DNA of 54,483 nucleotides from Verrucomicrobiia bacterium (lineage in GTDB: Bacteria; Verrucomicrobiota; Verrucomicrobiia; Verrucomicrobiales; Akkermansiaceae): NCBI GenBank assembly GCA_030432565.1, contig JAUIGV010000035.1, forward strand, positions 1 to 54,483, given 5' to 3'. Made by a program: the position numbers and the translations under genes. This document shows positions 20,410 to 22,442 of the stretch, piece by piece. The stretch's first letter is position 1. Every line of letters starts with the position of its first letter. Below the pieces are notes generated by a model. It worked only from the letters and a program-made list of their open reading frames with translations. It was not told the DNA's origin and searched no databases.

Positions 20410-21549
20410 TCACTCTTCATGAAAGTTTGGATCGAGGCGGTGGGTGTAGTCGGGAAAGTTGAGTTTGATGCTTTCCGTTGGTGGGGTGTTTTTGGGAGGG
20501 GTTGGGAAAGTTGAAGTTTTTTTCTTCAGGCAATTGTCGGTAAAAGCGTGGAGGAAATTGAGGAGGTCGGTGATTTCGTCGTCGTTGAGGCCGAGGTTTC
20601 CGAGGTCGTCGTGGTTGACGGTTTCGGGGTAGTCGGTGACGCCCCAGCGCTCTGGTTCGAGGTCGCGTTTGTTGTAGAATTCCAGGACCTCGCGCAGGGT
20701 TTTGATCGAGCCGTTGTGAAGATAAGGCGGAGTGAGTTCGACGTTTCGAAGGCTTGGTGCTCGAAATTTCCCGAGGTCGTCAGGATCTCCGGTGACAGCG
20801 AAGAGGCCGGGGTCCTTCTTTCCGATGGCCGGGGCTCCGAGGTTGTCAAAGCCGAAGTCGGAGAGGAGTGGTTGGTTCCAGTTTTGAGGTTCGAGGAAGT
20901 GACAGTCGGCGCAGCCGCCGGAGTTTTTATAGATATCGAGTCCTCGTTTTTGTGATAGGGAGAGGGCGTTCTTCTCTCCGGCCTGGTATCGGTCGAAGGG
21001 AGAGTCGAAGGGTCGGAAGGTAGGAGACTTTAGAAACTCAACCAGAGCGCGATAGACGAGGTAGTTGAGTGGACCGTCGTTCTTGAGAGCTTCTGGTGGG
21101 AATCTGTCCTTATAATTGGATTGGCGGATTCGTTGGGCGAGTTCGGCTTTGTTTTTGAGGTTCATTTCATGGGCCTCAAAGAAGGGTTGGCTCACTTGCG
21201 CGAAGAGGTCTTTGGCCCGGCCGTCCTGAAAAAGGCCCCCTTCCCAGGCGAAGATTTCGGTTCCGTCGGGGAGCAGAATATCTTCGTATGCGAAGGGAGG
21301 GATGAGCGCCGCATACATCAGCGACGGGGCGTTTCGCTTGCCGGAGAGAGCGGGGTTGGCGCCGGGAGAAACGCGTCTGGGGTCCGCAAAAGCGTGGTCA
21401 GATTGGTGACATGACAGACACGACTGGCCGGGTGGATTCGAGAGTGTGGGATCCGTGAAAACAAGACGCCCGATCTCAGCGAGATCGGGCGTGGCTTGGG
21501 AGAAACTGAAGGATGCAAGTGAGAGGTAGAGAAAAATCCGAGCAAGCAT
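20410..21549 (-). CDS. Di-haem cytochrome c peroxidase (CCP/MauG family), exported
   Basis: A 379-residue protein from the ATG at 21549 (MLARIFLYLSLASFSFS, a signal peptide); upstream codons in frame overlap the sodN gene and look like read-through. It has two haem c sites, C44-LSC-H48 and C213-ADC-H217, as in bacterial CCP and MauG. It also has the family segment LRNVELTPPYLHNGSIKTL near the C-terminus. CCPs reduce hydrogen peroxide in the periplasm with electrons from small cytochromes; MauG-like members oxidise other targets instead. The gene begins 16 bp after the stop of sodN on the same strand. SodN makes peroxide, so a detoxifying CCP role is the most economical reading. Confidence 0.85.
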   Translation of the reverse strand: MLARIFLYLSLASFSFSQATPDLAEIGRLVFTDPTLSNPPGQSCLSCHQSDHAFADPRRVSPGANPALSGKRNAPSLMYAALIPPFAYEDILLPDGTEIFAWEGGLFQDGRAKDLFAQVSQPFFEAHEMNLKNKAELAQRIRQSNYKDRFPPEALKNDGPLNYLVYRALVEFLKSPTFRPFDSPFDRYQAGEKNALSLSQKRGLDIYKNSGGCADCHFLEPQNWNQPLLSDFGFDNLGAPAIGKKDPGLFAVTGDPDDLGKFRAPSLRNVELTPPYLHNGSIKTLREVLEFYNKRDLEPERWGVTDYPETVNHDDLGNLGLNDDEITDLLNFLHAFTDNCLKKKTSTFPTPPKNTPPTESIKLNFPDYTHRLDPNFHEE

Positions 21550-21565
21550 CCTGGAGCAAAGGTGA

Positions 21566-22018
21566 CTACTTTTTGGTGCCAAAATGCTTCTCGAAGTCGT
21601 GCATGAGGTCGTGGAGCGCAGCGACATTCTTGGCATCGGTGGACTGTTTGCATTTCATCGCAGTGACGATGACTTTGTGGCAAAGAGTGAGTTTGGCGAG
21701 GTAGGTTTCCTTGTCGGATTCTGCTTCGGCGAGCTTGAGGCGCTGGGCGAGGAAGTAGTTCAGGACTTTCTCCTGAATCGCCTGAGCGTGAGACTCCTTG
21801 TTGGTGATCCAACGGGTCAACTGGTGGGCGTTTTTGGATGGGTCTTTGGAGAGTTCGATGATCTGTTTTGATGCTTTTTCAATGGTCTCGAAGTCGGTGT
21901 GCATGGACTCAATGACATTGTCATCATTATAGATGCCGCAGGGGATCTGGCAGTGGGCTGAGATCGTAGCGGGAGCGAGGAAGGAAAGGGCGCAGAATGC
22001 TAGAATTGATTTTTTCAT
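21566..22018 (-). CDS. sodN: Nickel superoxide dismutase with Sec signal peptide
   Basis: A 150-residue precursor. After the signal peptide (residues 1-21, cleavage after ISA) comes HCQIPCGIY, which is the nickel hook of Ni-SOD (H-C-x-x-P-C-G-x-Y). His22, Cys23 and Cys27 correspond to His1, Cys2 and Cys6, the nickel ligands, and Tyr30 to Tyr9. The helical remainder (for example IQEKVLNYFLAQRLK, and DLMHDFEKHF at the end) fits the four-helix bundle. Ni-SOD needs a free N-terminal His, which in Streptomyces comes from a separate protease. Here signal peptidase cut at the predicted site would expose it directly, and no sodX-like gene is adjacent. It is the first gene of a two-gene unit with the di-haem peroxidase. 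Confidence 0.93.
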   Translation of the reverse strand: MKKSILAFCALSFLAPATISAHCQIPCGIYNDDNVIESMHTDFETIEKASKQIIELSKDPSKNAHQLTRWITNKESHAQAIQEKVLNYFLAQRLKLAEAESDKETYLAKLTLCHKVIVTAMKCKQSTDAKNVAALHDLMHDFEKHFGTKK

Positions 22019-22115: not shown

Positions 22116-22442
22116 CTAGGCTGTGAGGTCTTTGGTGTCGCCACCACAATTCCTGCCAACCGACGAAATGCCATTGTCCCGCCCGGATTCAGTCTTGTAT
22201 TGCTGGGACTGTCCGATGATCTGGCCGTTTCCTGCTTTGAGGACAAAGTAGAATTTGCCGTTGGAGGCTTCCTTTTTTTCGAAGTTGGATTCATCGCCAC
22301 CATTTTTGGCAACGGAGGCGATTCCATTCTCGGCACCCTTTTTATCAGCATAGCCTTGAGACTGCATGATGATTTCGCCGTTCTGGGCTTTGAGGCGGAA
22401 GTGGTATTTCCCGGTTTTTTCGCTTTGGAAGAGTTCGTACAT
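22116..22442 (-). CDS. YegP-like DUF1508 protein, two tandem repeats
   Basis: A 108-residue protein made of two DUF1508 repeats: KYHFRLKAQNGEIIMQSQGY then GIASVAKNG, and KFYFVLKAGNGQIIGQSQQY then GISSVGRN. Each repeat is a beta-sheet plus helix unit of about 50 residues, as in E. coli YegP. No enzyme activity is known for the family. There is no signal peptide, so it should be cytoplasmic. It is transcribed toward sodN but separated from it by a possible terminator. Confidence 0.9.
   Translation of the reverse strand: MYELFQSEKTGKYHFRLKAQNGEIIMQSQGYADKKGAENGIASVAKNGGDESNFEKKEASNGKFYFVLKAGNGQIIGQSQQYKTESGRDNGISSVGRNCGGDTKDLTA

Follow-up and report, generated by a model that had tools for sequence, protein, structure and literature searches.

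The first codons of a gene for an exported di-haem protein, ccp, probably double as the transcription terminator of the nickel superoxide dismutase gene, sodN, that lies in front of it, with ccp itself being made by read-through. We located this putative overprinted terminator in the window, the whole stretch of 54,483 nucleotides that was analysed from a bacterium of the Akkermansiaceae. Here, sodN (21566..22018, minus strand) encodes an exported Ni superoxide dismutase precursor of 150 aa, and ccp (20410..21549, minus strand) encodes a di-haem CCP/MauG-type protein of 379 aa. As the original prediction had described, both open reading frames lie on the same strand, 16 nt apart (21550..21565), and both N-termini resemble signal peptides by eye. 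No terminator-like site was reported inside this gap, which measures 16, 16, 17, 18, 26, 32, 32 and 36 nt at the eight loci with an intact ccp, with starts chosen by script. In two of these (G497 and G049), an in-frame stop lies immediately 5' of the ccp start. A ccp promoter inside sodN is possible; one promoter-like site was found there, against 0.7 expected by chance. Directly before sodN lies a DUF1508 gene (window 22116-22442), as in some relatives; no DUF1508 match was seen at that place in some ccp carriers, e.g. loci L033, L035, L036 and L039.

The proposed sodN terminator stem is a perfect 12-bp hairpin with a 3-nt loop (21466..21492, minus strand), placed 73 nt past the sodN stop and spanning nt 58-84 (codons 20-28) of ccp. 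These codons read TPDLAEIGR, with which the mature di-haem protein is predicted to begin. With 8 G-C pairs among its 12, its short loop and -21.5 kcal/mol, the hairpin has the stability, G+C richness and short loop of a terminator stem. It is followed on its 3' side by the T-rich tail CTTGTTTTCA (21456..21465, minus strand), in which 7 of 10 positions are T, with interruptions. The tail is likewise interrupted at all eight intact loci (6-8 T of 10, longest run 2-5), and has 6-9 T of 10 over twelve loci. This suggests that termination may be weak, so that partial read-through would be expected. The terminator scan that showed the ccp hairpin returned five terminator-like sites against 3.6 expected, and therefore proves nothing alone. 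The stem was present in the predicted fold at 12 of 12 loci, with either 60 or 150 nt of upstream RNA included, with fewer stem pairs in G102, G079 and G057 and with the two outer pairs lost in G094 at 150 nt. No alternative antiterminator fold stood out in these predictions with upstream RNA.

A hairpin of 12-13 pairs occurs in all eight intact linked ccps. The same region of the unlinked homologues, comprising all 30 full-length unlinked matches above 50% identity, contains no such hairpin in any case, with stems of 4-10 pairs and -1.0 to -12.6 kcal/mol, which rules out a trait inherited with the ccp family. Within the eight stem codons, none of 167 same-residue comparisons showed a synonymous difference, as opposed to 3272 of 7849 (42%) gene-wide; with the loop codon added, there were 10 in 182. 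The stem has the lowest synonymous difference of 370 windows along ccp. When the near-duplicate G008 was left out, the counts were 0 of 127 for the stem codons and 2521 of 6136 gene-wide, and not one of 200,000 random 8-codon sets was free of synonymous differences. Furthermore, synonymous recoding with local codon usage reached the stem length in only 0-10 of 5000 trials per gene. The synonymous constraint and the recoding trials together rule out the hairpin as a chance product of the amino acid sequence.

The hairpin also persists where ccp has decayed. It is exact in the truncated ccp copies of G143 and G094, and in G499, where the ccp frame is broken, it is longer, with 15 pairs. In G057, where a scar of ccp is left, the hairpin is kept with two changed bases and is followed by a TTTTTTTT tail, and the frame still reads QKTPNLSKIGRF. 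Allowing up to two mismatches, the hairpin pattern was found in 11 of 27 genomes, at a single place in each, which excludes a repeated or mobile element, and this place is just 3' of sodN in all 11. Both the survival of the hairpin beyond ccp in these four genomes and its single, constant position just past sodN argue for a sodN terminator.

Loci of the genus without ccp bear on the same point. Using a scan for at least 7 perfect pairs and a loop of 3-9 nt, we found an ordinary T-tailed perfect hairpin soon past the sodN stop in four of them (G021, G031, G130 and G498), which again argues for a sodN terminator. Against this reading, a perfect hairpin past sodN is not universal in the genus: the scan found none in the ccp-less G040, G109, G126, G138 and G502, only a weak one in G134, and one without a T-rich tail in G140 and G065. 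By eye, longer-looped or imperfect T-tailed hairpins are present past sodN in G109 and G134. As a base rate, we counted T-tailed stems of at least 10 pairs in 405,935 bases, made up of the window and 20 stretches of its own genome, with ORFs called by a simple length rule. Four lie on the sense strand inside ORFs, including the ccp hairpin, and 13 lie at the edges of ORFs or beyond them; one of the three other ORF-internal stems belongs to a long-called ORF, 7 nt from its 5' end. Two other T-tailed sense-strand stems of 10-11 pairs inside called ORFs of this genome were seen at L238 8838-8867 and L230 9700-9722.

The original prediction proposed searching relatives for a conserved adjacency of sodN and ccp, and the pairing largely failed this check: it was seen only in one group of a single genus, where it seems to have been broken or lost in several lineages with sodN kept. 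The 27 genomes of the genus contain 24 sodN matches. The neighbouring ccp is intact in eight (G000, G008, G049, G079, G086, G102, G497 and G500), truncated or broken in three (G094, G143 and G499) and reduced to a scar in one (G057). It was not seen in the remaining 12, some of which lie on short contigs. One of the 12, the ubiquitin-NiSOD match of G138 (L087), is a likely contaminant and is not counted as genuine. Throughout the neighbour counts, absence of ccp is less certain where contigs end soon past sodN (L020, L021, L072, L080 and L192) and likewise on further contigs cut near 1.2-1.5 kb. Another 133 sodN loci were examined, with flanks of up to 1.5-6 kb in which the shortest remnants would be missed; seven have a ccp-like neighbour, all of them in the same genus, and no locus examined beyond this genus showed one. 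This set covers the family, the phylum and six loci of other phyla. It includes every family locus except that of the window (68 of 69) plus one repeat (L144), 53 of the 55 sodN places that the phylum scan gave outside the family (two fragments were left out), and 11 of 19 other loci (L040-L050), the first five of which (L040-L044) seem to come from genomes that are in the count already; the set does not include G497 and G500.

In a uvrC tree, the intact, truncated and scar loci fall in one 15-genome group with moderate support (82/89), many inner forks being weak; the group also holds the ccp-less G065 and G140, and G121, which has no sodN match. In a quick tree, the linked ccps form one clade relative to 21 unlinked homologues (SH-aLRT 100). 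Tree and remnants together would be read most simply as a single gain of ccp behind sodN followed by at least three breakages or losses. Since sodN persists without ccp, the two do not appear to be an obligate pair. In a relative of G143 (L034 6493-8728), ccp breaks off after about 80 codons, and where its body would be there is a 613-aa ORF, phosphodiesterase-like by eye, on the opposite strand; the truncation in G094 (L037) is similar. A two-haem ORF behind sodN in G134 (L027) was rejected as a ccp, being by eye an unrelated cytochrome. The nearest unlinked ccp group, 60-62% identical, is found at other places in the genomes of those genus members that have no adjacent ccp. In G021 (L175 5222-6394), such a gene sits by eye directly behind rpsB-tsf, which is usually a strongly expressed unit, and ccp relatives may tend to settle behind strongly expressed genes of this kind.

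The SodN protein scores 104.8 bits on Pfam Sod_Ni (cut-off 25) and only 34.1 bits on the NCBIfam sodN equivalog TIGR02753 (cut-off 90). We therefore file it as a divergent NiSOD, within the Sod_Ni family and outside that equivalog. By sequence reading, a signal-like peptide (21956..22018, minus strand) ends in ...TISA and is directly followed by HCQIPCGIY (21929..21955, minus strand), which has the HCxxPC pattern and would form the Ni-hook. Cleavage is predicted at the bar in ...TISA|HCQIPCGIY, with the hook as the new N-terminus. The HCxxPC motif, with A or G directly before it, is present at all 69 family sodN loci (including L087, the ubiquitin-type contaminant), so signal peptidase would be expected to expose the Ni-binding His1; 69 of the 145 genomes of the family carry sodN. 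An excerpt of PMC12537917 describes Ni binding through the N-terminal His of NiSODs and the use of the signal peptide of a Roseiconus lacunae NiSOD. As in secreted NiSODs whose His1 is exposed by signal peptidase, the signal peptide of the window SodN directly precedes the Ni-hook His, and the sole difference seen is its low TIGR02753 score. In the G138 match (L087, contig G138:C188), the NiSOD is preceded by a ubiquitin-like C-terminus (...LRLRGG|HCQVPC). Because a Ubiq-NiSOD fusion is known from algae (PMC6332867, in part), the contig is probably an algal contaminant in this genome bin. A search of an anti-phage library returned no matches for SodN or the ccp protein.

The ccp product scores 105.5 bits on CCP_MauG (cut-off 25.6) and has two CxxCH motifs. 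Its best NCBIfam model is MbnH, at 146 bits against a cut-off of 362.85, and the MauG model gives 88.1 bits against 443.85, both falling short. In a profile search of solved structures, BthA of Burkholderia thailandensis (6nx0) came first, followed by MauG, 6e1c ('di-heme enzyme', which we take to be MbnH) and the classical peroxidases; in a single-sequence search, MauG ranked first. An AlphaFold model with a mean pLDDT of 64.5 was set aside. Both haem motifs, C44xxC47H48 (21406..21420, minus strand) and C213xxC216H217 (20899..20913, minus strand), are invariant among 26 aligned proteins. In classical CCPs, a Met is the ligand of the second haem. The alignment has Tyr292 (20674..20676, minus strand; invariant) at this place, corresponding to the haem ligands Tyr294 of MauG and Tyr463 of BthA (residue names from an excerpt of PMC6405878). 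At the position of the inter-haem Trp, which the same excerpt gives for the classical bacterial cytochrome c peroxidase, ccp has Gln108 (21226..21228, minus strand), in the place of Trp93 of MauG and Ser257 of BthA. Glu128 (21166..21168, minus strand; invariant) occupies the place of the catalytic Glu113 of MauG and Glu277 of BthA, and Gln118, Pro122 and Glu128 are spaced as in the distal pockets of both enzymes, so that the Gln, Pro and Glu of the distal peroxide pocket are retained.

By alignment, the ccp protein thus resembles BthA in its CCP_MauG family membership, its Tyr ligand place, the lack of an inter-haem Trp and its Gln-Pro-Glu pocket spacing, although the similarity is remote and ccp is known here from its sequence; bthA, unlike ccp, lies downstream of a putative phosphatase gene (PMC6405878, in part). 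BthA is described in that part as a good peroxidase with ABTS, an artificial donor, and as inactive with horse heart cytochrome c, and by analogy peroxide use by the ccp protein appears likely. The product is probably an exported BthA/MauG-like enzyme that uses peroxide, and we infer peroxidase activity; a non-peroxidase role is possible, since the second-haem ligand place holds a Tyr of the MauG/BthA type and not a Met. In seven compared linked ccp proteins, 219 alignment columns have one residue throughout, which suggests purifying selection. The window's own genome contains one sodN, one Fe/Mn SOD and six CCP_MauG matches (five above the cut-off), and no match to the PF00199 catalase. Among its other genes is a second ccp paralogue (L182 5012-6154, contig C56), 54% identical and without the hairpin, which by eye adjoins large cytochrome-type genes.

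In the overprinting that we favour, the ancestor of a single group within an Akkermansiaceae genus would have gained a ccp-like gene once, immediately downstream of sodN. The sodN transcript would mostly end at an intrinsic terminator formed, hairpin and U-rich tail alike, by ccp codons 20-31; its 3' end would now be set by codons for what is predicted to be the N-terminus of the mature di-haem protein, and full-length ccp mRNA would arise only from RNA polymerases that read through. We infer termination at this site, its efficiency and a low ccp:sodN ratio from the sequence comparisons. In E. coli, the ampC attenuator / frd operon terminator both closes the preceding operon and attenuates the gene that follows. 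That terminator is located before the next coding sequence, whereas the sodN-ccp hairpin lies inside it. Intrinsic terminators within the first ~100 bp translated are found in E. coli early-coding terminators and the pyrBI attenuator (PMC4824070, in part); there, pyrL is a leader peptide, whereas the frame overlapped in ccp is that of a full enzyme, with the hairpin coding for its mature N-terminus, and the ccp-internal hairpin, unlike the pyrBI attenuator, would end the preceding gene. According to the same excerpt, a terminator within the first 100 bp of the coding region was efficient in the tested E. coli system, because the first ribosome still lagged behind, and such terminators are no longer repressed when the stop codon lies more than ~27 nt upstream of them. 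The ccp hairpin lies less than 100 bp into its coding region, with the upstream stop more than ~27 nt off, and the efficiency of these early-coding terminators adds to the case for a sodN terminator. Transcript ends inside coding sequences have also been mapped experimentally in E. coli by Term-seq, as sRNA or regulatory ends, among them aceK int with an intrinsic terminator score (PMC7815308, in part), whereas the end within ccp is predicted and would belong to the preceding gene. No overprinted terminator of this kind was recognised in the open-licence papers among the matches listed.

Other readings account for parts of these observations. The hairpin may end sodN transcripts while ccp is there by chance, under its own promoter or hardly expressed. 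The linked ccps being one clade, the decay in several lineages and the survival of the hairpin beyond ccp would all fit, and the promoter-like site inside sodN, though within chance, could serve such a gene; but eight intact ccps with their catalytic residues kept imply expression, and the gap is too short for a promoter outside sodN. We hold this to be a real, if not a favoured, possibility. The original prediction of a dedicated periplasmic pair, co-transcribed and converting superoxide to water in sequence, seems to us rather unlikely. The evidence supports it in part: in its favour are the adjacency, the signal-like N-termini, the pocket residues invariant in 26 proteins, the genome without a PF00199 catalase match and the suggested purifying selection on the 219 columns. 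Against it, only 8 of 24 sodN matches in the genus are intact-linked, the seven cases in 133 further loci are all in that genus, ccp is broken or gone in several group members that keep sodN, and the terminator-like hairpin within the start of ccp makes equal co-transcription unlikely. The pair is thus real and local, and a joint pathway is possible. Among the matches listed from the open-licence literature, no paper joined sodN to a CCP/MauG protein; the prediction knew of no standard description of such a pair.

The overprinted terminator could in addition act as a translation-gated switch, with ccp made only when a ribosome starting at ccp keeps up with RNA polymerase. Ribosomes are in general able to prevent intrinsic terminator hairpins (PMC5021804, in part), but the first ribosome has usually not caught up within the first 100 bp (PMC4824070, in part), and we regard such a switch as unlikely. 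If it were true, ccp output would depend on transcription-translation coupling, for instance on a polymerase slowed under oxidative stress, and the requirement that a terminator be encoded there would have moulded the mature N-terminal sequence. It is still less likely that the di-haem protein is, instead of a peroxidase, a MauG/MbnH-type maturase that acts on some other exported protein, perhaps SodN. The Tyr292 ligand place and the presence of MbnH and MauG among the best NCBIfam models point that way, but both model cut-offs were missed, a Pfam scan of five neighbouring genes gave no known substrate family of such enzymes, and SodN occurs without an adjacent ccp at 12 of 24 genus loci. Finally, the palindrome might be bound by a protein at the DNA level, or might slow translation just past the signal peptide as a hairpin in the mRNA; indeed, it begins at the predicted signal cleavage site, and conservation alone cannot tell an RNA hairpin from a DNA palindrome. 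Of 120 stem pair cells, 96.7% are paired, and the one both-side change was matched by 150 of 500 shuffles and is too rare for covariation to inform. Against such roles, the hairpin has 15 pairs in the frame-broken G499 and is kept with TTTTTTTT in the G057 scar, five in-stem changes give G-U pairs (though four cells are unpaired), and the T-rich side is the sodN-sense side, which makes them very unlikely.

A likely overprinted sodN terminator is the stronger and less expected result, and it corrects the simpler reading of the locus as a plain two-gene operon. If it is true, a natural stretch of DNA would terminate one gene and also encode the beginning of the enzyme that follows. Part of the value of the case lies in the relatives that have lost the coding role and kept the hairpin, together with the strong synonymous constraint. 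With this locus, it would become directly testable how far terminators within coding sequences are tolerated and whether they may be put to use.
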